Shown piece after piece: positions 3,835 to 38,057 of a stretch of 64,000 bases of DNA. The notes under the pieces were generated by a model, which saw only the letters and a program-made list of their open reading frames with translations, did not search any database and was not told where the DNA came from. How positions within the stretch are numbered: the first letter of the stretch is position 1; each line of letters begins with the position of its first letter. A program made the translations under genes and the position numbers. Source of the DNA: Lyophyllum atratum (taxonomy: Eukaryota > Basidiomycota > Agaricomycetes > Agaricales > Lyophyllaceae); NCBI GenBank assembly GCA_014905825.1, contig JACGCN010000001.1:2046001-2110000 (forward strand), read 5' to 3'.

Positions 3835-3881
3835 GGCTCATGTGTTATGCCCGTCGATGGTTATGTCCCACATAACACATA

Positions 3882-6731: not shown

Positions 6732-6732
6732 T

Positions 6733-9600: not shown

Positions 9601-9689
9601 AGGAGCCTTCCGGAAAGTGAAGTCTTCATTGCTGTTGAGTATGAGTCTGTTGTTGAAGCCCATGTTGATAGTCTACCAATTTGAAAGTG

Positions 9690-10035: not shown

Positions 10036-10094
10036 TTTGGTATTTTCACCAGACACACCTACCACAATCTGTGATTGGAAGACATAGTCGGATC

Positions 10095-10590
10095 ACCGAA
10101 GTTCATCGTGGGCAAGCCCGTGACTCTTTGGGAGGTACGATGGGAATTGCCCATATGCTTCATGGGCATGCCCTGAACACATGTGGGAATTACCCATGGG
10201 TGATCCCTTGACATTGGACGACTGAACTGGGTGACCCAAGTTCCTTCTGGGCATGTCCGTGACTCTTTGGGACCCGTGAAAAGATGACCCAGAGGTACGG
10301 TGGGAATTGCCCAGCTGCTTCATGGGCAGGCCCTGGGCACATCCGGGAATTACCCATGGGTGATTGGAGGTTAAAAGACTGCATTGGGTGACCCCGGCTT
10401 CTTCTGGGTATGTCCATGACTCTTTGGAAATTGTGAAAAGGTAACCCAGAGGTACTGTGGGAATTGCCCATCTCCATCATGGGTAGGCCCTGGACACATG
10501 TGGGAATCACTCCAGGGATAGAAAGACTGAATTGGGTCACCCAAGTTCCTCGTGGGCATGCCCTGGACCAGAATATTGACAACTAAAGTT
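10095..10590. repeat. left subterminal repeats, set 2
   Basis: Three to four diverged units of about 150 bp with GTGGGAATTGCCCA, CTTCATGGGCATGCCCTG, GGGAATTACCCATGGGTGAT and GGGCATGTCCGTGACTCTTTGG. It shares the GGGCA/TGCCC character of set 1 but is a distinct unit. The AT-rich sequence from 10591 to 10897 holds nothing I recognise. Confidence 0.75.
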
Positions 10591-10897
10591 GGCATAATCT
10601 GAGTAATCCACTTATTGGGTAAACATTGACAGTTTAGGTCCACTGTAAATCCGTGAGAATAATAAGAGAGTAAATTGTGGTCTCAAATTCTAATATATCA
10701 AACTTACTTGCAACTAAAGACTAGCGCAAAGCAATAGTATTTAGTGAACTTAATCGTAGCAGAAAGCAATAGCGATTAAGTTTAATTGTAAAGGAAAAGA
10801 TAGTGCACGGCAATATTTAATGTTTAGCGCCGTTCTAACGACGAGGCGGCGCTGCATCAACAACCAGAGACACAAAAACATCCGCTCAGCTTATGTA

Positions 10898-10978
10898 TGC
10901 ACACACCCGGAATCGAACCGGGGACCGCCCAGACGCGAGGTGCTAAGCGGGCATGATAACCAACTACACCATGTGCCC
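10898..10978 (-). tRNA. tRNA-like gene with probable short intron, anticodon unresolved
   Basis: The minus strand reads from GGGCACATGG to GTGTGTGCA. The A box (TGGTGTAGTTGG) and B box (GGTTCGATTCC) are perfect. The T arm CCCGG-TTCGATT-CCGGG is intact, and GCCCG pairs with TGGGC as the anticodon stem around a 16-nt loop, 9 nt longer than normal, consistent with a short intron. The acceptor stem (GGGCACA with TGTGTGC) has a G-G mismatch and a wobble, so the gene may be decaying. The loop contains TTAGCAC, so AGC (Ala) is possible but I cannot fix the anticodon. It lies inside the KDZ element between subterminal repeats and the accessory gene. Sequence on to 11307 is AT-rich and featureless. 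Confidence 0.7.
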
Positions 10979-11307
10979 TTGGCAAAGTCTCGCACTGGCA
11001 AACTCACAAGGTCATAGCCACCGCGTGTAAGCCAAAAGATATCCTAATACTTACAAGTTCAATTCGGAAACTCTTTTCCTTACAATATCATGCAGCAAAA
11101 TGTTTGCGATGAGAAAAGCGTGCATTCATTTAGTATGATGAAAAAAATATGTACGCAATGGTATCCGGCCAAGCAGACGCCCTCCTGCAACTGATGAGTA
11201 GATACTGGACCCAGCAGGTAACTACAAGACTTGATGTAACTACACAGCAGCCGCCGCAAAAATATCAGCAAATTAAATTAATAACTATGAATTGGAAAAT
11301 ACATACC

Positions 11308-13737: not shown

Positions 13738-13769
<32 letters not shown>

Positions 13770-15779: not shown

Positions 15780-17881
15780 AAGCTACTGTTGAGGGTCTGC
15801 GGCCTGTGCGCCCACCTCAAGGAGTTTCTGAACCTGCGGATGGCTTTGATCCACGCATGAAGGTTCCAAACTCTGCTCTGGATAGCTGTCATGACTCGTT
15901 TAAAGCTGCAGATGAGAAGCGAGTCAAAGCTAGCACTAAGGTTTTCCAGGACACTGGACTCATGGCGCTAATCTGCCGTCATGATCGTGTCCTGTGGCTG
16001 GTTAACATGACTGAAGCTGGTGAACGGCAGTACTATGCCTTCGCACTACTTGATGAACTCTTTCATCATCTTCCGACAGATATGACTGTTGGTGTTCTCT
16101 ATGATATTGGCTGTCAGCTCCATCGTAGCTGTGAGAAGTGGGACTTCTTACCAGAGTTTAGGGAGCGCATACTCTGGGGAATATCTGTCCTGCACGCTTA
16201 TGGGCACCAGTGGCCATGTCAATTGATTTATCACCCGCGCAAATGCAAAGGCTTTGGCCTTTCAGATGGTGAAGGCTGTGAACGATTTTGGAGCTCTATA
16301 AAGCTTCTAATTCCAACACTACGCGTGTCTGGTTATTATAAAAGACTATATTCGCTGGATACCCAGGTCCACTTTTTACTAGAAAGGTCTCTGTTAAACA
16401 TGGGCAAATGGCTTACTCGTAAATGGAATGCATGTGAAGAGCGAAAGCAAGATGCCCTCCAGACATTGAATAGCTTAAACTTGGATCTGGACTTGCTGCA
16501 GATTGAATGGGAGAACCAAGTTACTGCTCAAACAAAGCCTCTTGCACGACAATCTAAGTCTTTGGCAAGCAAAGCTATAAAGGAGATACTGAATCTGATG
16601 GCCCTAAGAAAGTCTTGTGCTGAAGAAAGAGAGAATCTGGATTCGTTATTACTGTCTGGAGACTATGATGATGCAGATGAAATTCTCACTGGAAGAAAAG
16701 CCCTGCAGGAAAAACTAGATCTTATGGCAAAAACTATTGCACAGAAACGGGAGGCTCTTGGGGTGGATGGTCGAGCTAATCTGAAAGGACTTGTCAACAA
16801 CAAATTTCTTCAAGTTCAAATGAATGCAAAGGCACTAAAACAGCGAATCTGCACACGTATTCGTGACCGCAAGTTCCAACTAGAGCGCTTAGAACGGGCT
16901 TATCGTTCCACCACATCTAGTGAGAGAAAATTACATGATCATGTCTCCTCCCAAGTGAAAAGACATGAACCTGGCATACTGCAGCTTGTTAACAAATACA
17001 ACGCTCTGTGTGAAGACTTATCTCTGCGTCTCAGCCGTGGTGAAGGGACTTCTGGTGCAGTAGCCCCTGTTCCTATTAAAAAAGAGGGCTTGTTTAAACT
17101 GGACGTGGATGATGAGATCTGGCAGAATATTGGCTTGAATGAAAATGAAGCATTTGATCAACAAGTTCCTGACTGGCTTGGCGATGAAAATACGAGAATT
17201 GGCATCAGAGCTATGCTCTATTTGGAGCGATGTACTGAAGAGACTGGGAGACTTGCTAGGGAAATATCTGCATTGCAAGATTGGATGATGGAGGAATGGT
17301 GCACCATCAATCTGGCTATTGATAAAGCTGAAGGACAGTCTGGTCTAGTCCATCAGTTGGAACAAGACAGGCAGCATTTAGTCCATTTGTGTGCTATGTG
17401 GGAGACTAGCCTTGAAACCATCCCCGATGCTTGGGATACTTCACTACCATGGGGGCCATCCCAAAGTGAGATTCATGAAGCACGATTAGCCGAAGCCACG
17501 GCGCAGGTGGCATATCAAGATGAAGATGAAGATTTTGAAGATGTTGAAGATGAGGAAGAGGAACTTCTAGGAAATGAGGAGGACCTCTGGGATGCATTGA
17601 ACTACTCTCACTATACTGATGCACATGAAGCTCATGGTGCCGCATCATCTTTGGGGCTGAGTGACATGGTGGATTTCTCTGTCTTGAGGACCTACATGGA
17701 AGAGAGTGGTTCCAGATCGCCTCATAAACGTGCAAGGCCTCTCGGAGAAGTAGAGCCAAGCAGGCCAGTCTATATATCTCGTAGGGGAGAAGCAAGCCGT
17801 TCTAGGTCGCCTACTAAAGCGGCTTGGGTGTCTCGAGGTTCCCCGACAAAGCATTATCATCACATTGAGGGAGAAGAGTAA
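15773..17881 (+). pseudogene. KDZ transposase, N-terminally truncated
   Basis: About 700 C-terminal residues of a KDZ transposase. Family blocks present: PNSALDSCHDSFKAADEKR, DTGLMALICRHDRVLWL, YDIGCQL (second catalytic Asp), LHAYGHQWPCQL and SDGEGCERFWS (catalytic Glu region). They are followed by the long coiled-coil C-terminus and an acidic/SR-rich tail to 17881. The CxC cysteine cluster and the segment with the first catalytic Asp, which normally precede MKATVEGLR, are missing: similarity starts at 15773 right at the end of the minus-strand accessory gene. The frame is open back to 15647 but that part belongs to the other gene's exon and intron in reverse. An internal deletion explains this best. 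It should not be active as a full transposase. Confidence 0.85.
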
Positions 17882-18009
17882 ATAAATCTTGTACTGCTGT
17901 GACTTACAATTTGATCAATATCATGCTTTTAACTGTGTCTGAATTGATGCACAAATTTCTTCATAAGTTTAACACTGAACATGCTGAGTGTTTTCTCATT
18001 CCCTCTCTA

Positions 18010-18640
18010 GGTCATCTAAGAGTTCTCAGGGTCACCTATGGTATTGCTAAACACCTGTGGGCAGCACCCAGTATAATTCTGGGCATTACCCCTATGGTCC
18101 GGTTGACGTTGCCCAGAGTATCAAGGGCAGCTCCCAGTAGAGTTCGGGACATGTCCAGTGCAATGAGGGTGATCCCCCCGGATTGCCCAAGCACACTTGG
18201 GCAGCACCCAGTGATGTTCAGGACATGTCCACTATGATGAGGGTAATCCCTCAGGCTTGCCCGAAGTGATGGTGAACACCACGGGCAATTCCTGAACAGC
18301 TGAGGACATGTGCCCTATGGTACGGGTGACCCTAATGGGTTGCCCAGAGTATCAAGGGCAGCTCCCAGTAGAGTTCGGGACATGTCCAGTGTGATGAGGG
18401 TGATCCCCCTGGATTGCCCAAGCACACTTGGGCAGCACCCAGTGATGTTCAGGACATGTCCACTATGATGAGGGTGTTCCCTCAGGGTTGCCCAAAGTAA
18501 TGGTGGACACTACGGGCAGTTCCCAAAACAGCTCAGGACATGCACCCTATGATACGGGCATCCCTAGTGGGTTGCCCAAAGTATTGCTGGACACCCTGTG
18601 GGCAGTGCCCAAAACAGCTTGTAGGGACACCCTTCAAATC
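18010..18640. repeat. right subterminal repeats of KDZ element
   Basis: About six diverged units, inverted relative to set 1 at 8990-9600. Recurring motifs are TTGCCCA, GGGCAGC(A/T)CCCAGT, TTCGGGACATGTCC and GATGAGGGTGATCCC. Two stretches of about 110 bp (from 18112 and 18346) are nearly identical, which suggests recent local duplication. Confidence 0.8.
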
Positions 18641-18835
18641 CTTGGCTCCACCTCCCTCCACAGTCGCCCAAGTGATGGTACACCTTCCCTGTCCCCAGCT
18701 GTTCTGCGAATCCCACTCTGTACCATCTCCCAAGATTTCCAATTGCTCCATCAACACGAGTATTATTCATGTCTTGAATTTCAACTTCAGTCTAGGCATG
18801 GATGTGGAGACACTGCCTCCAACCATCCTCCGATT

Positions 18836-19258
18836 GTCATGTAATACCGATAGGAAACCCTAACCTTAAGTCCTCCAACTGTCGGTCCCGCAAAGAAGGC
18901 ACCTGCAGACAGTATGTTATTGTCTGCAGCAACTTACCACATCTAGTAGATGACTACGGTAAAGAGGCCCTACAGAAAAAGAAAAAAAAAAATGAAGGAC
19001 CCCGTGCACCCTGTGACGAGGTATTATTTAATGCGGGCACACCCGTATGGTTGGGTATCCCAGACCATGCCCGGGCCACCCACAATTGGGCAATGGGTGT
19101 GTTCCTGGTGGAAATCCCAGAGGGATGCCCTAGGGCGCCCATGGGCAGGGAAGGCCCAAACCCACCAAGGGATGCCCCCGGGCAAAGGGCCTCTTAGGGG
19201 GTAACTTTCCATGGAATTGTGACACCTAAGAGGGGGGGTCAATGGGTTGACTGAGGTG
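18836..19258. repeat. right terminal inverted repeat of KDZ element
   Basis: Inverted counterpart of 8303-8730, ending GGGTTGACTGAGGTG next to ACGCAGA. Weaker inverted similarity extends inward to about 18635. The arms differ at more positions than the two LTRs of the surrounding retroelement do. Confidence 0.9.
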
Positions 19259-22200
19259 ACGCAGAAACCTGGTATTGGTCACTCCCAGGGGATTATCGTG
19301 ATACGGTGGAGAAGGACTGGAATACCCTCCGTAAATGTATCTCTACCTACTACATGAACAGGAAGTGGCTGGATAAACAGAAGGCGAGAGCCGTTAGAGC
19401 GGCTTACAGAGAGAGCGGTCATACACGCGAGACACCCAGCGAATACTATATTCGTAAGGCGGAACTACTCAACACGGTATACACCCTCGATGACTCTGAA
19501 ATGATTCTGGAGATAATGGAAGGAGCCCCAGCCAACTGGAACACAGTACTCACAACTCAGCTCTACGTGGATGTAATTGAATTCCAGTCGGCTATCAGAT
19601 TCCACGAGGACACCCTAATGAGATTAGATTCTCCACGATCTGAAAGGGTCGATAACTATCGGTCGCCTACCAATTACCGGGACCAACCCAGGAATACTAA
19701 TTACAACGCCCGGACAAACCTGATCGGCGCGTACAAGTCACTTGAACCCCCTAAATACCCCAAGGACGACTCTAATATCACTCGAAGAGGATCTACTCCC
19801 GAGGATAAAGGAGCAAGACCCTGCCGACACTGTGGTAGCGGTAAACATTGGGACAACGAGTGCAAACACGCTTTCAAGAGTAATCGAGCGGCGAGAGCGA
19901 ATCTTGCAACCACCTCGGATGATGCTTTCGAGGCACAAAGGGAGTATGATGACCTTTATTACGGATTAGACTCCGAAATTGAGGATCTCAGCCAGGATTT
20001 TGATTATTCCCTCCAGACTACCAAGGAGTCCGAAGACTCGACGGCCCTGGAGGGTTACACCGGCAACACGATAGATCAGGATTCGGATAATCAAGACTCG
20101 GGAACATCTTCACGCACTCTCAACACCTTTTGCGCACCTTATAACTCCAAACCTCCTCTTAATCGAAGGTCACGTAGGCGGCTAGCTAAAGAAATCAACG
20201 CTACTAATTATCTAGTTAGAGGAGATTCCAACTCAAACTCCAATGGAAGAGTTATAGAACTCAAGAAACTGATGGCTCGCCCTCCTGGATGCTCCTTCTT
20301 GGGATCTCGCGCGACTCAAACTACGGCTACCATAGGTGGTATCGATCTCGACCCTATTAATGTTATCCTAGATTCAGGATCGGACATTACGCTTATATCG
20401 CAGAAAACGCTAGAATCGCTTACTCTGAAGCCCAAGTCTCGTCTAGGACAGAAGATAAATCTCATTCAAGTCACTGGTACAAGTTCCATCTCGGGATTTG
20501 TCGATATAGATCTATTCTTCCACACTGACGACGGCCCGATTAAACTCAGTGTTGAAGCATACGTAGTGAAGGGAATGACCACTCCTTTTATCCTCGGGAA
20601 CGACTTCGCAGATCAGTATTCGTTGTCAGTTGTCAGAGAGAACGGCGAGGCCTACATTACGTTTGGAGACTCAGGACGCCGCATCAAGGTCGATAACTCT
20701 ACCTCACCTTCCCTCATTAATGAAGACGGTCATGCGTTTCAGATTCGAACACAGCGGAATCTAACTTCCATTCCTCGCAATCGAGCTCATCGCAAAAGTC
20801 AGAGGATTAAGAGGCTGCATCGTCACAGGCTAGCAAACTCGGAAGTAAGAGCCGCTGAAAGAATGGTCATCCCACCTGAGGTCAGCCGAATGATTCCCTT
20901 ACGAGTTTCGTTTCCCCCCAACGCGAAAACCCTTTTCGTGGAGCGAAACCTTGAGCACACCAGTAATCCTGAGGATGTGTATGGTAGCGCTGATTCTTTA
21001 ATCTCTCGAGATTCTCCCGTTCTTCATATAGCCAACTTCTCGGCATCCCCAATTATCATCGCGGAAGGACAGTTGTTGGGAATTGCTCGAAACCCTAGAA
21101 ACTGGTTAGACAGAGAAGAGAATTTGTCTAAGGAACAGAGAAACGCTATTGAGAAACACGCCCTTCTAATTCAATCACTTAGTAACATACAAGAATCTTC
21201 GGTATCCAACACGGTTAGCAGCCAGACCGAAATCTCTTCTAAAGCCCAGCGCAACGCTACAGAAGACGATGATCCACTGGCCGAGGAACCACTGGAAGGA
21301 GGACCTAAGACTTCTGAGCCACCTGAAGACTCCGTGCCAAGTTCACGACTACTTGCCGAGGTAGAAATCTCCAAGGATCTAACCGCGGATCAGCGAAAGC
21401 AATTAGAAGGAGTCATTCTGAAAAATGAGAAGGCTTTCGGATTAGATGGACGACTCGGGAATTACGATGAAAAGGTAGAAATCTCTATGAAGCCTAATGC
21501 CCAACCGGTATCCTTACCCCCGTTTCCCGCGTCCCCTGCTAAACGAGAGGTTATTGATAAACAAATGGATTCCTGGATTAAACTCGGCGTAATTGAACCT
21601 TCAAAGAGCCCTTGGGCCGCGCCGGTTTTCATCGTATACCGAAATGGCAAACCACGCATGGTTATCGATCTAAGAAAGCTCAATGAGATGGTCATTCCTG
21701 ATGAGTTCCCCATCCCTAAACAAGAAGATATATTGCAGGCACTCACAGGGTCGCAATGGCTCACCACCCTCGATGCTCTAGCAGGATTCACGCAATTGAC
21801 CATGTCAGATAACGCTGCCGAAAAGTTAGCCTTTAGAACTCATCGAGGTTTGTGGCAGTTTCGTCGTATGCCGTTTGGATACCGGAACGGCCCCAGCGTT
21901 TTTCAACGCATAATGCAGAAGGTTCTGGCGCCATACCTCTGGGTTTTCACATTAGTTTACATCGACGACATCGTTATATTCTCTCTCACCTTCGAGGATC
22001 ACCTGAAGCACCTCGATCAAGTATTTTCCGCCATTGCGGAGGCCAATATCACGCTGTCACCTTCTAAATGTCATTTCGCCTATCAATCGCTACTGCTCTT
22101 AGGTCAGAAGGTATCGCGACTAGGCTTATCCACTCACAAGGAGAAAGTAGACGCCATCCTTGATCTGGATGTCCCAAGAAACCCCGGCGAACTTCAGGTG

Positions 22201-25152
22201 TTTCTGGGAATGATGGTCTATTTTTCCGCCTATGTCCCATTCTATGCCTGGATCGCTCATCCCCTGTTCCAGCTGCTAAAGAAAGGAACGGATTGGATTT
22301 GGACCGAACTACACCAGGAAGCATTCGATCTGTGCAAGCAAGTCTTGACAAACGCACCGGTTCGAGGTTACGCCGTCGAAGGGAAACCTTATCGGTTGTA
22401 CACGGACGCCTGCGATTACGGCCTCGCGGGCATACTGCAGCAAGTCCAACCAATCAGTATCCGGGATCTTCGGGGTACGCGGGTGTACGACCGGCTTCTC
22501 AAGGCTTACAAGAATAACGAGCAGGTCCCTTCCCTGGTTCCTTCCCTATCCAAGGAGATAAACGATGTCCCCGAGCCAGGAATATGGGCGGAGTCATTTG
22601 AGGATACTATAGTTCACGTAGAGCGCGTGGTAAGCTATTGGTCTCGAGTATTAAAGTCCGCCGAGCGGAACTACTCGCCAACAGAGCGCGAAGCACTAGC
22701 CTTGAAAGAGGCTTTAATTAAATTTCAGCCTTTTCTTGAGGGGGGGGATATCCTAGCTATCACGGACCACGCAGCGCTTACTTGGAGCAAGACGTTTCAG
22801 AACGTAAATAGGCGATTACTCACCTGGGGCACCGTTTTTGCTGCGTATCCCACGCTCCGAATCATCCATCGCGCGGGACGCGTACATTCCAACGTAGACC
22901 CCATCTCTCGACTACGAAGAAGGATGCCCATCACTTCGGGACCAAAGACTGATGACATCAGGACACTCACCCTGTCAAGCCCCGACGATCCCATGAAGGA
23001 TATGTATCTCGAGCTCGGAGATCGGTTCGAAGAACGGCTGTTAAGCGTGGCTTCCCGATTTGTACAAGCCGAGGAATCTTGGGATCAGGCACCATCGGCT
23101 ATCAACACTGACCCTGTCTATCTCGACTTCAACTCAGCGTTGAATGACATCGATCTCCCCTATGTAACCTCGAGATCATACTCTGTAATGGTTAGCCTCT
23201 CAAAAGAGGAACTAAATGATTGGGTACATGCTTATCAGCTCGATCCGCATTACAGCGAGGTGATCAAGGAATGGAAAGGCGAACGGAACTGGACAAATCC
23301 TCGATACCCTCAATATCACTACAGTGACGACGGTTTGATATTTTTTGAGGACTGGCAAGGTAACAATCGTCTCTGCGTTCCGAAAAATCGTCAGAGTCTA
23401 GTAATGAATGAGGTACACAACACAGTCAGCGAGGCAGCACACGCCGGCTACCACAAGACGTATAACCGTCTGGCCGCCACTCACTATTGGCCAAGGATGT
23501 CGCGCGATTTAAAGCTCTTTGTCACCACATGCGACATATGCCAAAAATCCAAACCACGCCGCGACCCGCCTAAGGGGTTATTACAACCAATCCCGATTCC
23601 CTCGCAGCCTTTCGAAGTAGTAACGATGGACTTCATACCCGAACTTCCGAATTCAGAGGGGTTTGATAACATTTTGGTAATTGTCGATAAACTCACTAAA
23701 TATGGAATATTTATTCCGTGTACAGTTACTATCACAGAAGACGAAACCGCTGAGTTATTCTTCAAGCATGTTATCTCGCAATATGGAATCCCTCGTCAAG
23801 TCATAACGGATCGTGACACCCGCTGGAAGAACGACTTCTGGAAAGAGATATGTCGTCTGATGGGTATGACACGCGCCTTGACCACCGCTTTCCACCCACA
23901 GGCTGACGGACAGTCCGAGATACTTAATCAGACGCTGGAGATAGCACTACGCGCATACATCGGACCATCAAGAGACGATTGGTCCAAGTACCTTGACGCC
24001 TTGGCCCTCAGTTACAACTCGACTCCCCACACAGCTACGACCTTCGCACCAGCATACTTACTGCGCGGATATACACCTATCACGGGTTCAACGATCTTAG
24101 TGAATCCGAGCTCTGTTCCCAGACCATCGGAGGAGGCAGTTGACGACCCCGATCTGCTTCACGAGAAGGCGGCTGTTATGGTCGATCATTTCAATGCGGA
24201 GCGCACTCGAGCCAAGGAAGCACTACTACTAGCTCAAGTTCATCAAAGACGCGCATATAATAAAGGACGACTTACTACGGAGTTCGAGGAAGGCGATATG
24301 GTGGTACTCAATGCCCACTCCCTGGAATTACTCAAGAAGGAGAAAGGGAGAGGTAAGAAACTCCTTATGAAATATGATGGCCCCTTTGAAATAATTCGGA
24401 AGCTAAGCCCTGTTACTTATCAGCTTCGCATGCCGGCTTCATACGGGACCCACCCTATCATAAACATCGCTCACCTGGAACGGTACTTAACATCACCTGA
24501 ACAATTCGGAGAGCGACCCTCGCGACGTCTCAATCGTGCCGACTTCGTGGAACTCGAGGAATGGGACGTCGATGCAATAGTAAGCGAGCGTTTCCAAAAA
24601 CGCAGAGGCGGGCGACGCGCTCGCGAGTACAAGGTGCGCTTCACCGGATTTGGTCCGGAATCAGACGAATGGTTAACAGCAACCGATATGAAAAACGCGC
24701 CACTCGTCCTCAAGGCGTGGCGGGACCACAAAGCAAATCTACACGCGCCTCAGACGGAACGCGACGGAAATTTACAGAACACTCTCGAGATATCACACGA
24801 ACCATTTCTGAACGATGGGACGCGCCCTGAACAGTCACAAGGCCATCCGGCAGAGCGGGAAAGCACGGTCGTGGCGCCAGAAGACGTCACTCCACCCTCT
24901 CACACATCACACATCCAGGGTCAGTCGCGGCGCATGTTGCGAGGACAAAGGAATCTAATAGATGTGCGCGAACGTTAGCGAACACGAGCTCGAACATTAG
25001 CGAACACGAGGCGCGACGAAAAGGGTTCTTCATCCGGTCATCTACACTATTTAACATTCTAATTTTCTGCACCTAATCTCCAGAACATCCTCGTTCGACC
25101 ACTTTCACGCACCCAGCCTCTTATCAAACTTCCAGTTACCCCTTTATTAAAC

Positions 25153-25941
25153 ATGCCTTCCGTTCACTCGACCGCCCTCACATTCGTCGCGAGCCCCACG
25201 ATGCGCCAAATCGAGGCCGTTATCCGCGATCCTTTCCTTAAATCGCTATTTCGCGGCGCCATCGCGTCCCCTTTGCTCGACTATCAATACAACCCCCTCG
25301 ACATCATCCCTCACCTCGACCATGGCGCAACCTCGTACACTCTCGATCCTCGAGTCGCAACATCGCTGTGGTCGCTCATGACCAAGATGGCCCAAGTCGT
25401 GCACTGCGCCGCCCACGATTTTGACCCCTACACTTCCGGCAAGGAACTCCCTATCACACTCCCTCGCGACCGCCTTAAATCACTCCAACTCTCCACCCCC
25501 ACCTTATCCTATGTCCTCGCTTTCCCGCACCGAAACCCTCTTTTGGACGCCTTCCCCTCCATGGAACAGCTTCGATTCCGTCTTCAACTCGTCCAACACA
25601 TCGCGTGCAGCTACCTGGTATGGATTGGGAAGGGGATCGAACGCAGCGTCGCCCAGGGAATGGCGTGCTCGTGGAACTGGGGCGCATATTGGGGAATGCA
25701 GTGGGAGGAGTTTCTGGAACGACTGGAACAGCCCGCTAAGTACATTCCCGTCGTCCCGGTCTACGATAACAAGGCCGTTGACGACTCACTCGCGATGATC
25801 CTCCATCCTTCTCTCTCGACTCCCGCCCTTCGTGCCAACAACATCTACAACGGTCGCATTCCAATCAGAGGCGGCCCCATAACCGTGGATTTCCCTCTCG
25901 CCGAGTCGGCTGACGATTTCGCACACCTTTTCTTGAACTAA
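25153..25941 (+). CDS. extra ORF of the chromovirus, unknown function
   Basis: A 262-residue frame begins 174 bases after the gag-pol stop and ends 235 bases before the 3' LTR. It starts MPSVHSTALTFVASPTMRQI and ends ADDFAHLFLN. It is rich in short hydrophobic and aromatic stretches (CSYLVWIGKG, WNWGAYWGMQWEEFL) but I see no signal peptide, no transmembrane helix of the envelope type, and no zinc or nucleic-acid motif. Codon use looks coding and the frame has no stop, so it is probably a real third gene of this retroelement. It might be made from a spliced or internal transcript. I do not recognise a family and give no function. Confidence 0.65.
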   Translation: MPSVHSTALTFVASPTMRQIEAVIRDPFLKSLFRGAIASPLLDYQYNPLDIIPHLDHGATSYTLDPRVATSLWSLMTKMAQVVHCAAHDFDPYTSGKELPITLPRDRLKSLQLSTPTLSYVLAFPHRNPLLDAFPSMEQLRFRLQLVQHIACSYLVWIGKGIERSVAQGMACSWNWGAYWGMQWEEFLERLEQPAKYIPVVPVYDNKAVDDSLAMILHPSLSTPALRANNIYNGRIPIRGGPITVDFPLAESADDFAHLFLN

Positions 25942-26163
25942 CACGGGCACTTTAGTACCATCGTCATTGTAAATAGCTGTACTAATACTTACCGGATCCT
26001 AGTGCCCTTACCTATGCGACCTTTCCTTCTTATTTATTATCACCCTTCCTTTACGACTTCACGTTTCACGACTTTTATGATGTTCTTTGTCTTAATTCCT
26101 CGACCGTCGACTTTAACACTATTTTCGTTCCAGGGTATCTGAGAATTTATTCAGTGCGTCTAA

Positions 26164-26176
26164 ACTGGGGGGGCTA
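26164..26176 (+). other. polypurine tract
   Basis: ACTGGGGGGGCTA lies immediately before the 3' LTR. The run of seven G is the expected start site of plus-strand DNA synthesis. The tract is short and G-rich with a few pyrimidines. Confidence 0.6.
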
Positions 26177-26848
26177 TGTCATGGGATGTAGTATGAGCAC
26201 ATACCTTAAGGCTAGCCTTGTCAATTAGAAGTTAAGACGCACTTAAGAATAACAAAGGAATTGAGACGCGCTGATAGACGCGTTCAATCTTATCTCAGAA
26301 ACCCGGATCAATCTCGCAAGATTGATATGAAGTCAGAGATGCCAGGGACTTGCGAGATGCCGAACAATATCTCGGATCTCGGGATCCGCCAAACACCGGA
26401 TGTTTGTTTGGCAACAGCCTCAGCCGGTTCCGGCGGCTCGGATGGATCCATCGCGTGTGCTCGAGATTCTTCACGCCCTTTGAAGAATCTTCTAGCAAGC
26501 ACAAGGTGCCGGTCCCCCTTACACTCACACTGACTCATGAGCATAGCCTCCTCAGTAGTATATAAAGGCTTAGTCTACTACTGTATTCGGTACTTCGAAT
26601 CAATCCTATTTACCTCTACAATTGAGTGATCATAAAGACTTATCTTGCAGGTTGCAAAGGACCGACGCGTATTTCACTTATTAAAGAACTAACAGAGTAA
26701 CTGTTACTTCGCCAAACGTCAGTGAGACGTCTTGGGATAAGTTCACGCATCTGTACTTAGAACAGTAAGATTTGACGGATCTCTAAATATAGAACCGGCG
26801 GATATCGTTGCTATCTAATCTACGCTAGATTAACTCTGGATCGCAACA
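26177..26848 (+). repeat. 3' LTR
   Basis: Same length and, by eye, the same sequence as the 5' LTR (constant offset 20,117). It is followed by CACCT, after which copy A of the exonuclease-DDE transposon resumes with TCCAG at 26854. Confidence 0.95.
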
Positions 26849-29800
26849 CACCTTCCAGTTTTTTTATGGCTGCCAGACTGTCTTCCCGGGCGGCCGGATG
26901 AGTTCATATGCACACGATGCGGAGTGGGCCATCCTCTCGTTCGCAATGGTATGTCTCTAGACCGTTGCGGGAACCCAACCGTTTACTCACTCGTCATGTA
27001 TTAGGATGGAACAACAAACCTGTTGCTCGTCGTGTCCGGGACCTTCATAACGACTATTTCCTTCTGACAGCGCGATTTGTATGCAACAAGGAAACAAAGA
27101 ACAATCCTGGATGTGGAGCATCGTATCAGGGAACAGATCCCAAAATTCTCGCACAGCTTCCACGTCATGTTCATGAGGCATTTCCAGGTAGGTATATGTG
27201 CACTTCTAAGATATTATCAACTCATAAACTCGTATCAATTCCAGCGTATCTCACAGCTCGTGGTGCCATCGATAAAAGACTAATGGCTGCCATGCGGACT
27301 CTGTTCGCGAGTCGATTTGGTCCTGAGCCGTTCGCATCACTTCTGGGAGAAATGCGTCATTTACATCATTCAGACCGCGAATTGATGTATCTAGCTGCCT
27401 GCGCCTCATCACAGACGTCTCCCGTGGAATTTTCAGTGTTTGAAGACAAGAATAGATATGCAGGGACTCATCCGTCATCTCAATGGTGTAAATCTGTCTT
27501 CGTAGACTGGATGCGAGCCCACCGAGTCTTTTTTGATAGAGTTATGGCTTCTCTTCCCGGGACTATCTTGAAAGGAGATCACACATTTAAGGTAAGTTGC
27601 GGGTCTTCAAATATTTTCGAAGCAGTCATTCAATGTTTCTTCAGCTGCTCAAATCTATGGCTCCCCTTTCAGGAGAACCTACTCATGATGCTATGTATAC
27701 TATAGTAAATGAGTGGGAAGATGCTCGTGCACAAGCCTTCACACTCACAAAAAGTCTTTCGTATGTTAGTGAGATGTACGAAGACATTGCGGAAGGCCTT
27801 GAAGCACATGGTCATTCTCCGACGTCTTTCATGTATACTGACAACGCATCTGGTCAGTTATTTCTTGTATAACACTTCGAAATAAAGCTTATTTTGATAT
27901 TTTAGGGGAGCTCGCATTTCATGAGTCTACGACTCGCTCATTGACCAATAACGTGGTTCATAAAGAGCTTGATCCATATCAGAAACTTCCACCACTTGAA
28001 ATCCCTCCCGACATTCGGGTCGCTGTCTACAACAGCTCTGACTTGATTGATAGTGCATGTAGTCATATCTTGGACAGTATTCCTGGAGATGGTTCTCGTC
28101 TGGTTATTGGACTTGATATTGAGTACGAGCTCGAGACCACTGGTCAGGGTGGTCCGGGAGCAAATCCAAGAGCGCGAACGGGTCAACTTGATGTTGTCCA
28201 GATTGCGATGGAGGATACTGTCTATGTTTTCAAAGTACGCTTTTCCCATCACATATGAAATTGTTAGATAGCTTAAAAGGTCTCAGGTTACTCAATTCAA
28301 GTCTCCTGCATCAGTACCACCATGTCTTCGGGCGGTACTCATATCCGAGCGAATTGTCAAGACTGGTCGAGCTGTACGTGCTGATTTGCAGAGGATTGCG
28401 GAAGTCTGGTCTATTTCAGAGCTTCGTACACTCCTCCAAAACTCTGAAGCCACTTCTATTGACCTGGGTGCGCTGGCAAAGCTAAAAGGCAAAGTCTCTG
28501 ATGCATCTGCGGGACTTGCGGCCCTGTCCGCAGTCATCTTGGAGAAACGGATCAGTAAACTTGATTCTGTTCGCTATTCCCGATGGTCTAGCCAAGAGCT
28601 TACAGAGTCTCAGATCAAGTATGCAGCTCTTGATGCATATTGCAGCTGGTGCATCTGGAAGAAGATATCATCTCTTCCTTCTGTTAATTTGCCTCTGACT
28701 AGAGACACACCTGGGCAGCTAGTTAGTCTCTACTCGGGGAAAAAGGTTGTGGCACTTGGATCACTCATTTCGGCAACAGATGCTATTTCTATTCCCCCAC
28801 TTGGTTCCAGACCAGCTGGAGCAATCAACGTAACACCTTCACGCGCTGTCATTCTGGTCGAGAAGGTGGTTGTACCTGGGTTTATCGTTTCCCTATATCA
28901 TGAAACATTGGAAACCTTGTCAAGTGAGCTGAAGCCATTTCATCTTGTTGTTTCCCGGTCAACACTCCGCACCCGCGCTGCCGAACCGCCTACATCCACT
29001 GAGCCTATCGGTCCTACTATCCAATTTGTGTTTGAAGAGCCTTCACAGCCCACCAGGGAACCTTTAACGACTCCTGGCTCTCAATTGGGATATGCGTATG
29101 ACTCTGATACCGATTCAGAGTCAGATAGCTCTGATTGTGACGAGGAAGACTTGCCTGGATTGCTAAGTTTTTCAGCCAATCCTACCAAGGTATGTTTTGA
29201 AAGCATTTGAGTCATTGTTAAAGCTAACCAAAATTATACAGGATCCACCTAGTGAACCAAGCTCCGATGAAGAGTACGATATTGATGATGGTTTTGATGA
29301 CCTTATCCGAAATGTGGATTTGACATCCCTCGATGATCCCTCTCCCTCCATTAATACTCTTCATCAACCACAATCTGCTTCTAGTCCTTTCTCAAACCGG
29401 CTTTTCGATGATTTGTGGCATGTCCAAGACCGCCTTCTACGATTACTGCCAAAAGGACACTCAGGATTCAAGGCTTTTGCAGCTGCATTCAGCCAGGTTC
29501 TTTTGATTCCAGACGAGTCAGACGTCACAGCTGTCTCTGCTGTTTATCAACGACGGGGACTTACTTGGTCTTATGCACTTCGTTCAAAGTCAGATGCAAT
29601 TCGACGGCGTGTACGACGATATTGCCCACCACCAGAGAGACTCGTTCCGGATTTGAAGAGACTCTTTGATAGCTGGTCAGATGTGAAGTGCTCTGCAGAT
29701 CCCCAGCGAGGGGCACTTTTCTCAGAGGCCGCAACGAAACAGGCAGGAGCAATTATCCGTGTAGCGGAACGTGGTCTCCTTTCCGATCCCCCTGGATTTC

Positions 29801-31515
29801 CTCTCTATCGCGTAATTGGCACAGATCCTGATGGCCTAAGAGTCTATCGTTGCATGCGTGGAACCAATTCAATTGAAGGAGGTATCCACATGCCCATCCG
29901 CCGCACGTTTGGATCCCTTCGAGCATCACCAGAACTGGCTGATTGCTTGCTCGCTAATATACGCCATCGAAGAAATGCAACGGCAAGTGTTCCACACCTA
30001 TCCTTGAGTTAAACTTATTTTTCATTTGGTGTACAGGTCGGATGGTTCAACCGTACAGGAAAACGGTTTCGGAACCATTTTGACACTTGGCGGACTGATG
30101 AAATTGTTGAGCTTGCAACAGAGTTGGGCATCAAGCCGACATTCCCTCTGCCTTCTGTTCTTGGCACGCGCATTGCGACGAAGGAGTCATCAGGAATTAT
30201 CAAGGTACCGAAAGCCATGACTTCAGCATATGGTATGCATCACATCGAGAAAGCTGTCCAGGAGGGCACTCCATACTATCGAGATGTACCTGTGCACCTC
30301 CTGACACATCTGTCGACGGCCCGCATCAGTGTCTACGAATACCTTCGACAACGTCAACAGACTGCGCATGCAGTCGTCCCCATACACACACCCGCAGAGT
30401 ACAAGCTCTACAACGAGCTGCTCAGCACCGATGGATTCACTATCTATTCCTCGCGTGCACCTATTGCAACTCAGACAGCAAAAGTGATCAACTTCGAACG
30501 ATTCGCGACGCGATGGAACGAAGTCGTACACGAACGGCTCGATGACCATCTATTCTACAAGATCCCCCAGCTTCTCGAACGCCATCACAAGGTGTGGGCT
30601 GCGTATCGTGCTGAGAAAGCAACGTTGTCCAACAGTGTACAAGAAAGGAAGGGAATCACTGACATACTGAATGATCCCAAGCGGCGATCTCGAGTCTTGC
30701 CAGCACTGACCCTCCCGGGAGCCAATCCGCAGCCGCAACCACGACAAATCGAAGGGAGAGGCCGAGAGAATAGTCAGACCGGCGGTGAGTACCGTGAATG
30801 GAATGTTTTCGACTCACAGTTGACGTTCATCACCATAGCATCCTCGGGAACATCTATGGTACCCCCCACAAAGCCAGCCGCACTGCAGACACTCCCTATC
30901 GTACCCATTCACATATCAAATCTGCCGGCATCCACACCGAACATGGAAACGGCGGAAGAAGCGGCGCGAGAAGGCGTCCCTGCTCAGCGTGAAAACACAG
31001 AGCTGCGCATTCCGAGCTCTATCGCGATGCCCGGATGTGACCAAGGCGGCGAACTTCAGGCGGCCTCTTCAAGTACGTCGAATTCGAACGGTGACCGGAA
31101 AAGACGCTTGAAGCGGTGTGCTGCGTGCCGTGACCACAGTTGTGATCGTGTGGAGAGCTGCAAGGGGTCGGGTGGGGCAAAGTTCTGTTCGTGCACACAT
31201 CATGATGGTCCTAAAAATCCACGGAAGAAGTCAAGGTTGTTCTAAATCAGCGAGCACCCCGCTCAGCAAACAGCAATCAGTATGTTATTGTCAATAGAAA
31301 AGCTCACCATTCAATGCAAGAGGCCCGAAGCCAACCACTTATTTATCTTCAGAGTGAAACTCAGAAATTCTGACAGGTAAAAAGGAATGAGTGCACCGGC
31401 CGCGCGATTCCAATGGACTGCAATTGACGACGATGCAAAAGGCTTTACTGGCGGAAGCATGGCCCCGAGTCAAAAGACAAACCTAAGCAAATAGACGACT
31501 TGGTGCAAAACAAAA

Positions 31516-31596
31516 GCATTCCGACGGGCTCGAACTCAGTGCTTCGGTGAAAGCGTGGCTTAAGTGTGCGCGCAAACCAGCTGGGCCACATAACCT
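31516..31596 (-). other. degenerate tRNA-Leu-like sequence near the right end of copy A
   Basis: The minus strand contains TGGCCCAGCTGG, similar to the A box of leucine tRNAs, ACTTAAG at the place of the anticodon loop, and GAGTTCGAGCCC similar to a B box, followed by TTTTGTTTT. The acceptor and T stems do not pair properly, so I treat it as a relic or a chance resemblance. An identical copy is at 37881-37961 in copy B. Confidence 0.3.
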
Positions 31597-32472
31597 TGTA
31601 GATAGTGGGTCACATAACACTCTATTATACCCTGAAATTCGAACTTGAAAAACTTGAATCATCGACGGACATAACATGTGAGCCTTTCTAGGCTCATGTG
31701 TTATGCCCGTCGATGGTTATGTCCCACATAACACATAACACGCACAGCCACTACCGATTTGGTATGACATTCCCATCTCTTGCTCGGGCGCCCGGGCACC
31801 GTGCAGCCGGATGCCAAATTCGTACACAAGTGCAAAATGCCGCCGACTTCCACAGCTCCCACAGATCAACTCCCAGCACAATCAAGACTGCGACGTCGTC
31901 ACAAACAGTATGTATCAATGTTCATCCTTGTTCATACATAGTCCTTAGCTGACAATCTGAAACCAGGTGCTGGTTATGTGGTTTTGGAAGGGCTTGCAAT
32001 CACTGATCAACCCCGATTTGCCGTCGATGCACCTACCGCTTGTTGCTCAGGATAACGACGATTAGAGGCAAGAGACGTGAGGGGAGATCATCACAATCAC
32101 GGTGCGTTACTGAGTCCCACAATGACTGATCCCCGCTGATTACACCTTTCTCCCCTCGAGCTCCCTACCCTGTACCTCGTTTGCAGCCGCCGGCGGGCGC
32201 CTTTCACGCCTTTCGCGACTTTTCGACCCACCCATGCATACCGCCATGCATACCTCCCGTCGGATAGCCCAACCTCGGCCTCGACTCCCGCCCCCAGCTC
32301 AGCCCGCCACCGCCATCATGGCTGTATATCATCGTGCGAGTGGATTGGCGGCAGCGAGCAATGTCAGACCTCGGGCTACATAGGACTCTTTGTAGCCTTG
32401 TGGTGATATGTATTTTGTGTAGTTGTAGCTCATAATCTACGATTTACGAGGCGGCCATGCAGCCATGCAGCC

Positions 32473-35400
32473 ATGCTAACTTATCATGTGTCCTCGCAAA
32501 CGTCGTGCTCGATGTCTAGCTCACTCTCCCAGCACGCATCAGGTAAAACGCGACACTCAGCTGCTCTGATGCCTAAACCGGACCCCTCAACTAAACCTAA
32601 ACCCAATACGTCGTCTACCCATGGTGGTGCTCGCCCTGGCGCAGGCAGAAAACTAAACACATCAAAAACAACTCAACGTCTATTCTCGAGTAACACCGTT
32701 CCTGGGACACCGGGCCAGGCAAGCGCACTCTTCTCTGATCGTACGTGAGCAGTCAGAGTGGATCCCGTGCCTCCCACGAGACAGAATTCAGGTGCGTCGT
32801 CACTGATGATCACTGGCAATGATTGACACCGAAGTTACTCCATTCTAGATTCGAATGTTCTCACCGCCGAGGAATATGCGAGGTTGCGATCAGAGTGGGA
32901 TGACATCCAGGAACTGGAGACCAATGAGGGTCAAGGAGATGCTGAGGTTGAAGAAAGTCTGTTTGAGGGAGAAGATGATCTGTTGGACGCGATGAATCAG
33001 GCTGAACGCGAGTCCAATGAGGAGAGCATATTGCAGGGGGTTCACGTCCAGTACCTCTTGGGTATTGTGGCAAAGTTGAAGGCCGAGATCAAATCCTCCG
33101 GCCAGCCCAATTGCTACAAGAGTGGTACACTTTGGATCCATCCCAAAGATCCGCTCTTTGCTCTTCATTCTACGAAGAATAATCCTGGGGGTTACTCACC
33201 CACTGGACTGTATCACCTTCCAGTTTTTTTATGGCTGCCAGACTGTCTTCCCGGGCGGCCGGATGAGTTCATATGCACACGATGCGGAGTGGGCCATCCT
33301 CTCGTTCGCAATGGTATGTCTCTAGACCGTTGCGGGAACCCAACCGTTTACTCACTCGTCATGTATTAGGATGGAACAACAAACCTGTTGCTCGTCGTGT
33401 CCGGGACCTTCATAACGACTATTTCCTTCTGACAGCGCGATTTGTATGCAACAAGGAAACAAAGAACAATCCTGGATGTGGAGCATCGTATCAGGGAACA
33501 GATCCCGAAATTCTCGCACAGCTTCCACGTCATGTTCATGAGGCATTTCCAGGTAGGTATATGTGCACTTCTAAGATATTATCAACTCATAAACTCGTAT
33601 CAATTCCAGCGTATCTCACAGCTCGTGGTGCCATCGATAAAAGACTAATGGCTGCCATGCGGACTCTGTTCGCGAGTCGATTTGGTCCTGAGCCGTTCGC
33701 ATCACTTCTGGGAGAAATGCGTCATTTACATCATTCAGACCGCGAATTGATGTATCTAGCTGCCTGCGCCTCATCACAGACGTCTCCCGTGGAATTTTCA
33801 GTGTTTGAAGACAAGAATAGATATGCAGGGACTCATCCGTCATCTCAATGGTGTAAATCTGTCTTCGTAGACTGGATGCGAGCCCACCGAGTCTTTTTTG
33901 ATAGAGTTATGGCTTCTCTTCCCGGGACTATCTTGAAAGGAGATCACACATTTAAGGTAAGTTGCGGGTCTTCAAATATTTTCGAAGCAGTCATTCAATG
34001 TTTCTTCAGCTGCTCAAATCTATGGCTCCCCTTTCAGGAGAACCTACTCATGATGCTATGTATACTATAGTAAATGAGTGGGAAGATGCTCGTGCACAAG
34101 CCTTCACACTCACAAAAAGTCTTTCGTATGTTAGTGAGATGTATGAAGACATTGCGGAAGGCCTTGAAGCACATGGTCATTCTCCGACGTCTTTCATGTA
34201 TACTGACAACGCATCTGGTCAGTTATTTCTTGTATAACACTTCGAAATAAAGCTTATTTTGATATTTTAGGGGAGCTCGCATTTCATGAGTCTACGACTC
34301 GCTCATTGACCAATAACGTGGTTCATAAAGAGCTTGATCCATATCAGAAACTTCCACCACTTGAAATCCCTCCCGACATTCGGGTCGCTGTCTACAACAG
34401 CTCTGACTTGATTGATAGTGCATGTAGTCATATCTTGGACAGTATTCCTGGAGATGGTTCTCGTCTGGTTATTGGACTTGATATTGAGTACGAGCTCGAG
34501 ACCACTGGTCAGGGTGGTCCGGGAGCAAATCCAAGAGCGCGAACGGGTCAACTTGATGTTGTCCAGATTGCGATGGAGGATACTGTCTATGTTTTCAAAG
34601 TACGCTTTTCCCATCACATATGAAATTGTTAGATAGCTTAAAAGGTCTCAGGTTACTCAATTCAAGTCTCCTGCATCAGTACCACCATGTCTTCGGGCGG
34701 TACTCATATCCGAGCGAATTGTCAAGACTGGTCGAGCTGTACGTGCTGATTTGCAGAGGATTGCGGAAGTCTGGTCTATTTCAGAGCTTCGTACACTCCT
34801 CCAAAACTCTGAAGCCACTTCTATTGACCTGGGTGCGCTGGCAAAGCTAAAAGGCAAAGTCTCTGATGCATCTGCGGGACTTGCGGCCCTGTCCGCAGTC
34901 ATCTTGGAGAAACGGATCAGTAAACTTGATTCTGTTCGCTATTCCCGATGGTCTAGCCAAGAGCTTACAGAGTCTCAGATCAAGTATGCAGCTCTTGATG
35001 CATATTGCAGCTGGTGCATCTGGAAGAAGATATCATCTCTTCCTTCTGTTAATTTGCCTCTGACTAGAGACACACCTGGGCAGCTAGTTAGTCTCTACTC
35101 GGGGAAAAAGGTTGTGGCACTTGGATCACTCATTTCGGCAACAGATGCTATTTCTATTCCCCCACTTGGTTCCAGACCAGCTGGAGCAATCAACGTAACA
35201 CCTTCACGCGCTGTCATTCTGGTCGAGAAGGTGGTTGTACCTGGGTTTATCGTTTCCCTATATCATGAAACATTGGAAACCTTGTCAAGTGAGCTGAAGC
35301 CATTTCATCTTGTTGTTTCCCGGTCAACACTCCGCACCCGCGCTGCCGAACCGCCTACATCCACTGAGCCTATCGGTCCTACTATCCAATTTGTGTTTGA

Positions 35401-37610
35401 AGAGCCTTCACAGCCCACCAGGGAACCTTTAACGACTCCTGGCTCTCAATTGGGATATGCGTATGACTCTGATACCGATTCAGAGTCAGATAGCTCTGAT
35501 TGTGACGAGGAAGACTTGCCTGGATTGCTAAGTTTTTCAGCCAATCCTACCAAGGTATGTTTTGAAAGCATTTGAGTCATTGTTAAAGCTAACCAAAATT
35601 ATACAGGATCCACCTAGTGAACCAAGCTCCGATGAAGAGTACGATATTGATGATGGTTTTGATGACCTTATCCGAAATGTGGATTTGACATCCCTCGATG
35701 ATCCCTCTCCCTCCATTAATACTCTTCATCAACCACAATCTGCTTCTAGTCCTTTCTCAAACCGGCTTTTCGATGATTTGTGGCATGTCCAAGACCGCCT
35801 TCTACGATTACTGCCAAAAGGACACTCAGGATTCAAGGCTTTTGCAGCTGCATTCAGCCAGGTTCTTTTGATTCCAGACGAGTCAGACGTCACAGCTGTC
35901 TCTGCTGTTTATCAACGACGGGGACTTACTTGGTCTTATGCACTTCGTTCAAAGTCAGATGCAATTCGACGGCGTGTACGACGATATTGCCCACCACCAG
36001 AGAGACTCGTTCCGGATTTGAAGAGACTCTTTGATAGCTGGTCAGATGTGAAGTGCTCTGCAGATCCCCAGCGAGGGGCACTTTTCTCAGAGGCCGCAAC
36101 GAAACAGGCAGGAGCAATTATCCGTGTAGCGGAACGTGGTCTCCTTTCCGATCCCCCTGGATTTCCTCTCTATCGCGTAATTGGCACAGATCCTGATGGC
36201 CTAAGAGTCTATCGTTGCATGCGTGGAACCAATTCAATTGAAGGAGGTATCCACATGCCCATCCGCCGCACGTTTGGATCCCTTCGAGCATCACCAGAAC
36301 TGGCTGATTGCTTGCTCGCTAATATACGCCATCGAAGAAATGCAACGGCAAGTGTTCCACACCTATCCTTGAGTTAAACTTATTTTTCATTTGGTGTACA
36401 GGTCGGATGGTTCAACCGTACAGGAAAACGGTTTCGGAACCATTTTGACACTTGGCGGACTGATGAAATTGTTGAGCTTGCAACAGAGTTGGGCATCAAG
36501 CCGACATTCCCTCTGCCTTCTGTTCTTGGCACGCGCATTGCGACGAAGGAGTCATCAGGAATTATCAAGGTACCGAAAGCCATGACTTCAGCATATGGTA
36601 TGCATCACATCGAGAAAGCTGTCCAGGAGGGCACTCCATACTATCGAGATGTACCTGTGCACCTCCTGACACATCTGTCGACGGCCCGCATCAGTGTCTA
36701 CGAATACCTTCGACAACGTCAACAGACTGCGCATGCAGTCGTCCCCATACACACACCCGCAGAGTACAAGCTCTACAACGAGCTGCTCAGCACCGATGGA
36801 TTCACTATCTATTCCTCGCGTGCACCTATTGCAACTCAGACAGCAAAAGTGATCAACTTCGAACGATTCGCGACGCGATGGAACGAAGTCGTACACGAAC
36901 GGCTCGATGACCATCTATTCTACAAGATCCCCCAGCTTCTCGAACGCCATCACAAGGTGTGGGCTGCGTATCGTGCTGAGAAAGCAACGTTGTCCAACAG
37001 TGTACAAGAAAGGAAGGGAATCACTGACATACTGAATGATCCCAAGCGGCGATCTCGAGTCTTGCCAGCACTGACCCTCCCGGGAGCCAATCCGCAGCCG
37101 CAACCACGACAAATCGAAGGGAGAGGCCGAGAGAATAGTCAGACCGGCGGTGAGTACCGTGAATGGAATGTTTTCGACTCACAGTTGACGTTCATCACCA
37201 TAGCATCCTCGGGAACATCTATGGTACCCCCCACAAAGCCAGCCGCACTGCAGACACTCCCTATCGTACCCATTCACATATCAAATCTGCCGGCATCCAC
37301 ACCGAACATGGAAACGGCGGAAGAAGCGGCGCGAGAAGGCGTCCCTGCTCAGCGTGAAAACACAGAGCTGCGCATTCCGAGCTCTATCGCGATGCCCGGA
37401 TGTGACCAAGGCGGCGAACTTCAGGCGGCCTCTTCAAGTACGTCGAATTCGAACGGTGACCGGAAAAGACGCTTGAAGCGGTGTGCTGCGTGCCGTGACC
37501 ACGGTTGTGATCGTGTGGAGAGCTGCAAGGGGTCGGGTGGGGCAAAGTTCTGTTCGTGCACACATCATGATGGTCCTAAAAATCCACGGAAGAAGTCAAG
37601 GTTGTTCTAA
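32473..37610 (+). pseudogene. DDE transposase with inserted DEDDy 3'-5' exonuclease, copy B, one nonsense codon
   Basis: Ten exons: 32473-32791, 32849-33313, 33370-33552, 33610-33956, 34010-34217, 34271-34599, 34652-35554, 35607-36347, 36402-37149, 37204-37610. They sum to exactly 1,550 codons with stop. Features by residue: GGARPGAGRK near 50; cysteine-rich DUF6729-like region (FICTRCGVGHP, then CNKETKNNPGC) at 245-300; D434 in GTILKGDHTFK; D504 in FMYTDNASG; exonuclease D578/E580 (GLDIEYE), D650 (GRAVRADLQR), Y729/D733 (YAALDAY); acidic linker near 890-940; E1130 in RGTNSIEGGIH; C-terminal cysteine cluster near 1505-1535. The DDE assignment comes from order and context resembling DUF6729-bearing transposases of animals. 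Codon 92 is TGA (32746) where copy A has CGA. Intron 8 starts GC. If translation began downstream of codon 92 the core domains would survive. Confidence 0.8.
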
Positions 37611-37880
37611 ATCAGCGAGCACCCCGCTCAGCAAACAGCAATCAGTATGTTATTGTCAATAGAAAAGCTCACCATTCAATGCAAGAGGCCCGAAGCCAAC
37701 CACTTATTTATCTTCAGAGTGAAACTCAGAAATTCTGACAGGTAAAAAGGAATGAGTGCACCGGCCGCGCGATTCCAATGGACTGCAATTGACGACGATG
37801 CAAAAGGCTTTACTGGCGGAAGCATGGCCCCGAGTCAAAAGACAAACCTAAGCAAATAGACGACTTGGTGCAAAACAAAA

Positions 37881-37961
37881 GCATTCCGACGGGCTCGAAC
37901 TCAGTGCTTCGGTGAAAGCGTGGCTTAAGTGTGCGCGCAAACCAGCTGGGCCACATAACCT
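37881..37961 (-). other. degenerate tRNA-Leu-like sequence near the right end of copy B
   Basis: Same sequence as 31516-31596 in copy A. Its presence in both copies shows it is part of the transposon and not a later insertion. Confidence 0.3.
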
Positions 37962-38049
37962 TGTAGATAGTGGGTCACATAACACTCTATTATACCCTGA
38001 AATTCGAACTTGAAAAACTTGAATCATCGACGGACATAACATGTGAGCC

Positions 38050-38057
38050 AATTTCTA
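38050..38057. repeat. right target-site duplication AATTTCTA
   Basis: Exact repeat of 3827-3834. It marks the right limit of the transposon island; the next base belongs to the 5' region of mph1. Confidence 0.85.

Follow-up and report, generated by a model that had tools for sequence, protein, structure and literature searches.

The transposases of the Dada DNA transposons Dada-1_LB and Dada-2_LB from Laccaria bicolor and Dada-1_ES from Ectocarpus are described to contain a DEDDy exonuclease between the second catalytic aspartate (D) and the DxxH motif, and it was proposed that this exonuclease processes 3′ ends (Kojima and Jurka, 2013, PMC3706591; here and in the following, statements on published systems refer to passages of the cited articles). 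The DxxH motif is common to the hAT, P, MuDR, Kolobok, Dada and IS256 transposases (PMC3706591; PMC9587614). Dada elements with definable ends target small RNA genes, have no terminal inverted repeats (TIRs) and were assigned a target site duplication (TSD) of 6-7 bp (PMC3706591). An element with a comparable transposase lies in a stretch of 64,000 nucleotides from Lyophyllum atratum (Agaricales; assembly GCA_014905825.1, contig JACGCN010000001.1, positions 2,046,001 to 2,110,000 of the forward strand), in the following termed the window, to whose first letter all positions refer. As the best overall explanation, this element is probably a DDE DNA transposon of Agaricomycetes that resembles Dada and encodes a single transposase with a WRN-like 3′-5′ exonuclease between the second D and the DxxH motif. 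This explanation is based on an intact gene, on TIRs and target duplications of 8 bp, on the presence of several copies and on exonuclease residues which are conserved within the genome. An earlier note on this DNA had presented an exonuclease within a transposase as a novelty; this does not hold, as the layout was published for Dada transposons in 2013 (PMC3706591).

Transposase gene and domain order

The transposase gene (32473..37610, forward strand, as all its features) comprises ten exons (32473-32740, 32849-33313, 33370-33552, 33610-33956, 34010-34217, 34271-34599, 34652-35554, 35607-36347, 36402-37149 and 37204-37610) and encodes 1532 codons with the sole stop at the end, according to a splice model which is in line with homologues and was placed by eye, without transcripts. 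Intron 1 (32741-32848, 108 nt) could alternatively be read as two short introns, and intron 8 is of the GC-AG type. Splice model, Pfam and alignment confirm the frame, motifs and coordinates given in the earlier note; its ten exons are retained, its 1,550 codons are reduced to 1532 and its residue numbers accordingly have to be lowered by 17. Two Pfam domains pass their curated cut-offs, namely DUF6729 (residues 173-392, 33097..33869, crossing introns; E 2.8e-15), whose region includes a cysteine cluster (C232/C235/C271/C281), and DNA_pol_A_exo1 (residues 582-728; E 8.3e-7). Based on alignment, the catalytic residues are the first Asp D417 (GDHTFK; 33942..33944), the second Asp D487 (YTDN; 34205..34207) and the Glu (E) E1113 (RGTNSIEGG; 36240..36242). 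Pfam, alignment and structures of relatives place the WRN-like DEDDy 3′-5′ exonuclease domain at about residues 541-735 (34420..35056, crossing one intron), with D561/E563, D633 and Y712/D716 as its active site residues. The DxxH motif (D958 and H961; 35775..35786), which the earlier note did not include, is found by alignment between the exonuclease and E1113. Directly 3′ of the exonuclease, alignment and models of relatives reveal a conserved beta-rich module with approximate boundaries (about residues 750-850, 35099..35401), which corresponds to strands 345-429 in the model of the relative P0009 and to strands 521-596 in that of the relative P0042. This module has no Pfam match and is also kept in relatives with changed exonuclease sites. 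The C-terminus (37473-37605) is rich in cysteines (CAACRDHGCDRVESCKGSGG...CSC), a feature common to several relatives, and could possibly be a zinc-binding tail.

Thus described, one protein combining a DDE-type core with a separate WRN-like exonuclease inserted after the second D, as claimed before, is supported, and structure searches with relatives match WRN itself. The exonuclease being a separate neighboring gene is ruled out, because annotated proteins of other Agaricomycetes hold both domains in one frame: both Pfam accessions are listed for six of 18 annotated homologues, a co-occurrence which the earlier note had suggested to look for. Public records list one relative, P0005 from Hypsizygus marmoreus, as Werner syndrome ATP-dependent helicase, likely a misannotation apparently caused by the exonuclease.

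An AlphaFold2 model of P0042 (mean pLDDT 77, pTM 0.58) starts its core with a strand (206-212) containing D210, two further strands (230-235 and 241-247) and a helix (252-268), followed by a strand (276-279), the second D (D280) and another helix (282-292). The exonuclease and the beta-rich module then reach to about residue 596, where a disordered linker begins, before a strand (692-694) leads to D695xxH and subsequent helices. E848 is located within a helix (845-857), with a pLDDT under 50 at the helix end. Compared to the strand and helix order of RNase H-like folds, this predicted order fits such a core with the exonuclease in between. The RNase H-like core proposed in the earlier note is hence consistent with the model, and its D, D and E residues might converge; in the model of P0009 confidence is low around the DDE residues. 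A further relative, P0056 from Antrodiella, aligns from the DUF6729 region to the second D (hhalign probability 97%), without a Pfam match to DUF6729, and exhibits just 21 residues between the second D and DxxH, which is why the exonuclease block looks like an insertion. Added to the 155 residues between DxxH and E in the window transposase, these 21 residues give 176, the same number as between the second D and E of Dada-U6_DR (PMC3706591), an agreement that may be a coincidence.

Element copies and tandem arrays

The window contains two copies of the element, arranged head to tail, an arrangement which the earlier note did not include. Copy B (31691..38049, forward strand; 6359 bp, defined by TIRs and flanks) harbors the intact frame and TIRs of 25 bp with 3 mismatches (31691-31715 and 38025-38049). 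Copy A (3835..31684, forward strand), which was identified by blastn of copy B against the window, differs from it at 7 of 6320 compared positions and is full length, split by nested insertions; the possibility of a 5′-truncated duplicate could thereby be discarded. Flank comparison revealed the same 8 bp, AATTTCTA, to the left of copy A (3827..3834) and to the right of copy B (38050..38057), and between both copies a spacer, TTTCTA (31685..31690), consisting of the last 6 bases of this outer duplication.

The same rule, an inner spacer that repeats the final six of the eight outer bases, applies to all four tandem arrays (three dimers and one decamer), which are known from assembly sequence alone. 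Read in gene orientation like the window array, array C72 consists of two copies of 6183 bp with 2 differences between them, separated by ATTTTC and flanked by AGATTTTC, and array C1 of two copies which differ by one 1-base gap, separated by TCAATT and flanked by TGTCAATT. The decamer (G000:C97:1352876-1365899; L055-L057, L060) is built from ten 1297-bp units, head to tail, with TCATCC between the units and GGTCATCC at both flanks, the number of units being derived from the end coordinates and nine junction matches. Its unit is a non-autonomous relative (77-82% identical to copy B over larger pieces), and three sampled units were identical. The bases of the spacer and those of the outer duplication stem from one site, so that formation in place is the simplest explanation for each array. 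Two TIR patterns gave the four array loci, and for a third TIR subfamily the pattern search found no tandem junctions (backward control: 2, 0 and 0 matches across the three patterns). The permitted spacer length was 3-12 bases; since the patterns were exact, an array whose ends are altered would escape. Two more matches to window-type TIRs were fragments.

Thirteen other family loci were examined in the genome, chosen by matches to the exonuclease profile or to protein P0001; all lists are lower bounds. P0001 is itself an L. atratum protein, with up to 99% identity to locus C64. Twelve of the loci have kept the exonuclease residues; the 13th is without this region. Twelve loci were placed in a tree, where one is of the window type, C108 stands by itself, three have GGTTT ends and seven lie near a Tulasnella protein. 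Six of 11 monomer loci have an 8-bp duplication next to their inverted repeats, which is exact in L043 (GGAAAAAG), L044 (GTTTGCAT), L045 (ATAATCCT) and L048 (AGAAAATG), has one mismatch in L046, and is exact in L040 if the right end is taken one base shorter. For the other five, L039 (5′ truncated), L041, L042, L047 and L049, the search for a TSD remained without result. The TIRs of L044 and L046 are weak (9 mismatches in 26). The automatic search presupposed a TSD of 8 bp; the flanks of L043, L045 and L048 agree for 8 bp, and not for 7 or 9.

As to the surroundings, a long terminal repeat (LTR) element of about 20.8 kb is nested in copy A (6061-26848; target duplication CACCT). Its LTRs, each about 671 bp long, do not differ from each other, and its insertion is therefore very young. 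Copy A furthermore contains a MITE-like insertion of 695 bp (3882-4576) with inverted ends CAGTCTTTCACC and an apparent TA duplication. About 80 bp past the right end of copy B begin host open reading frames (38127-39050) that contain a helicase-like, apparently Mph1-like stretch.

Relation to Dada and other families

With Dada, the element shares a DDE and DxxH transposase in which DxxH lies between the second D and E, and with the exonuclease-bearing members also the DEDDy exonuclease between the second D and DxxH. Likewise, its gene has many exons, its length falls within the Dada range of 4666-10979 bp and the spacing between first and second D is 70 residues, compared to 68 in Dada-U6_DR (PMC3706591). 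The N-terminal CCCC zinc finger of Dada (C389/C394/C429/C432 in Dada-U6_DR) resembles that of the relative P0017 (C-x4-C, then 32 residues, then C-x2-C); in contrast to both, the cluster of the window transposase has a wider last Cys pair. Where Dada has a C-terminal CCHC finger, the window transposase has its Cys-rich C-terminus (RCAACRDHGCDRVESC...) with a different spacing. Unlike the published Dada elements, the window copy and other copies have TIRs of about 25 bp, the TSD is 8 bp instead of 6-7 bp, and no small RNA gene was found at the examined insertion sites: Rfam at gathering score gave no match in the window, nor in 12 further sources, which cover six of the 11 monomer loci and the three arrays outside the window. 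Because the architecture is shared, while target choice, ends and duplication length differ, we call the element Dada-like rather than Dada, as far as the sequences indicate.

Other eukaryotic transposons are comparable in single traits. KolobokP is also a C/DxxH transposon with an extra nuclease and multimers, and its one-sided footprint was compared by its authors with IS3 and IS256; its nuclease, however, is a His-Me finger endonuclease, it has long terminal direct repeats and a TSD of 3-5 bp, and its arrays share a repeat unit and not a 6-bp spacer (PMC9587614). ISL2EU is likewise a DNA transposon that brings its own exonuclease, with TIRs usually starting with GG, yet there it is a YqaJ domain in a separate open reading frame (PMC4482050). 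An assignment to KDZ/Zisupton (Zisupton, Dileera, Kyakuja) from the 8-bp TSD alone was discarded, as there is no Pfam match: a Pfam search of the window transposase up to E 1 yielded DUF6729 and the exonuclease only, and neither KDZ nor any other named transposase model. No match to MULE or IS256 transposase profiles was obtained in seven excised proteins at E up to 10, with weak matches being mostly filtered; P0056 matches the MULE profile at E 0.017, under the cut-off. A PDB sequence search with the excised transposase had no match either. In protein searches for animal relatives, in which up to 8000 candidates were scored, the named matches were fungal only. Within the searched open-access library, nothing was found on DUF6729, and neither the rule of 8 bp outside and 6 bp inside nor a repeated change of the exonuclease site was found reported.

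Function of the exonuclease and origin of the arrays

Several observations weigh against the reading of the element as a Dada-like transposon with an exonuclease-bearing transposase. The likeness to Dada was judged from published descriptions, and three structure searches (best 50 rows each) returned exonuclease-fold proteins and no DDE transposase, whereby the DDE core was barely probed. The choice of loci by exonuclease or P0001 matches favors copies with an exonuclease domain. Some copies are decayed, as no Asp is read at the first D of L041 or at the second D of L052, and the DxxH of L042 contains a stop. In a tree of relatives, the exonuclease site is changed in 16 of 34 rows, with gaps at these positions scored as a change; proteins that had become too short by excision were left out beforehand. 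Eight of these 16 keep D, D, H and E, seven are without one or two of them, as gaps only, and P0027 has I in place of the second D. The arrays, finally, are chromosomal assembly sequence, and neither circles nor expression nor activity were observed. The TIRs, the 8-bp TSD and the missing small RNA target, which also count here, could instead indicate a separate superfamily that acquired its exonuclease independently at the same place, as could the lack of a Pfam transposase match in the element's own proteins. This appears improbable, considering that Laccaria bicolor Dada has the same type of exonuclease at the same place and a similarly intron-rich gene, and that the CCCC spacing of P0017 and the spacing of the two D residues are close to those of Dada-U6_DR (PMC3706591).

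For the Dada-like transposon proposed here, the DDE core would nick the element ends and join them to the target with an 8-bp stagger. Whether the exonuclease would trim 3′ ends exposed during the transposition reaction or repair is about evenly balanced. A rather unlikely alternative is that, as an insertion domain, it is by now mainly structural, comparable to the helical one in IS256-family transposases, and that its catalysis is a relic or accessory. In this direction point exonuclease catalytic residues that are changed in proteins from Mycena, Lentinula, Gymnopus, Marasmius, Rhodocollybia and Hymenopellis and, separately, in P0003 and P0006, as well as the tree, which needs 3 state changes, of which 2 are forced by well-supported branches (5 losses, counted by eye, if regain is barred); we read these changes as probable repeated loss. 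On the other hand, three deep subfamilies of the L. atratum genome retain all five exonuclease residues, dN/dS amounts to 0.124 (the value for DUF6729 is unreliable, as one alignment crossed an intron), and proteins with changed residues may stem from decaying copies or from poor gene models. The exonuclease which the earlier note saw in the transposase and proposed to process ends is present; the idea of its necessity is weakened by relatives which keep D, D, H and E and have changed exonuclease residues.

Concerning the arrays, their junctions suggest a resemblance to IS256-type copy-out. In the IS256 family (IS256, ISCth4), whose DDE core also carries a C/DxxH insertion, junction spacers are mostly 5-8 bp and come from one flank (PMC7780238), being 6-8 bp for ISCth4 and 5, 6, 7 or 19 bp for IS256, and the dimers of IS30 are likewise joined ends of two copies (PMC7780238, PMC9333248). 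The tandem copies of L. atratum match this with a 6-bp spacer from one flank. Tandem dimers of IS256 itself are reportedly the subject of a paper by Prudhomme from 2002, going by its title. Unlike here, where there are chromosomal arrays alone, the IS256 family is bacterial, has no exonuclease described and has demonstrated circles (PMC7780238). By analogy, strand transfer from the 3′ (right) end might be directed at a position lying 6 nt beyond the 5′ end, either of its own copy or of a sister copy, and would then yield the observed junction; the chance for this is somewhat below even. The same spacer could arise without a copied circle or replication step by ordinary cut-and-paste, if a cut at the right end of one sister was combined with a staggered second-strand cut in the other, placed 6 bp beyond its left end, and end joining then linked the two. 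This fits the arrays and explains the spacer nearly as well as one-sided transfer, but predicts the first six bases as often as the last six. In each of the four arrays it is the last six that are found; with equal sides, the chance that all four fall on one side is 1 in 8. The consistent side thus only mildly favors one-sided transfer, and cut-and-paste stays a tentative alternative with a clearly less than even chance. Very improbable is an unequal sister exchange between two 8-bp duplications with a subsequent 2-bp loss: the inner sequence would stay equal to the outer one and arrays such as the C97 decamer could also be enlarged in this way, but the same two bases, adjoining the 3′ end of the upstream copy, would have to be lost independently in four of four arrays, and 8 bp are short for recombination. 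Trimming by the exonuclease as cause of the 6-bp spacer was rejected, since zebrafish Dada-U1 shows the same spacing and the published passage mentions no exonuclease for it.

The rule of 8 bp outside and 6 bp inside bears, by analogy, on the published 6-bp duplications of Dada. Tandem copies of Dada-U1 lie 6 bp apart, yet have apparent 8-bp flanking duplications; because of the 6-bp distance the authors preferred a 6-bp duplication, leaving 8 bp open (PMC3706591). Dada-tA insertions often carry a foreign 6-nt flank, at times one-sided (PMC8869645). It is conceivable, with odds we place clearly below even, that copy-out with an 8-bp integration stagger serves Dada-type transposons, and perhaps further C/DxxH transposons of eukaryotes, to move or amplify, that the Dada-U1 duplications and Dada-tA flanks are junction spacers, and that the exonuclease processes a branched or 3′-ended intermediate. 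If copy-out holds true, circles and tandem arrays would be produced by attack of the 3′ end 6 nt outside the 5′ end.

While the layout of an exonuclease within a transposase is known, it occurs here in an element whose ends are defined, whose target sites are non-specific and whose tandem arrays are young. At such non-specific sites, duplication and spacer can be separated in the L. atratum arrays. Related fungi in which the DDE core is kept and exonuclease residues have changed offer natural comparisons for the role of the exonuclease, and arrays following one exact rule make it testable whether a eukaryotic DDE transposon may use an IS256-like copy-out.

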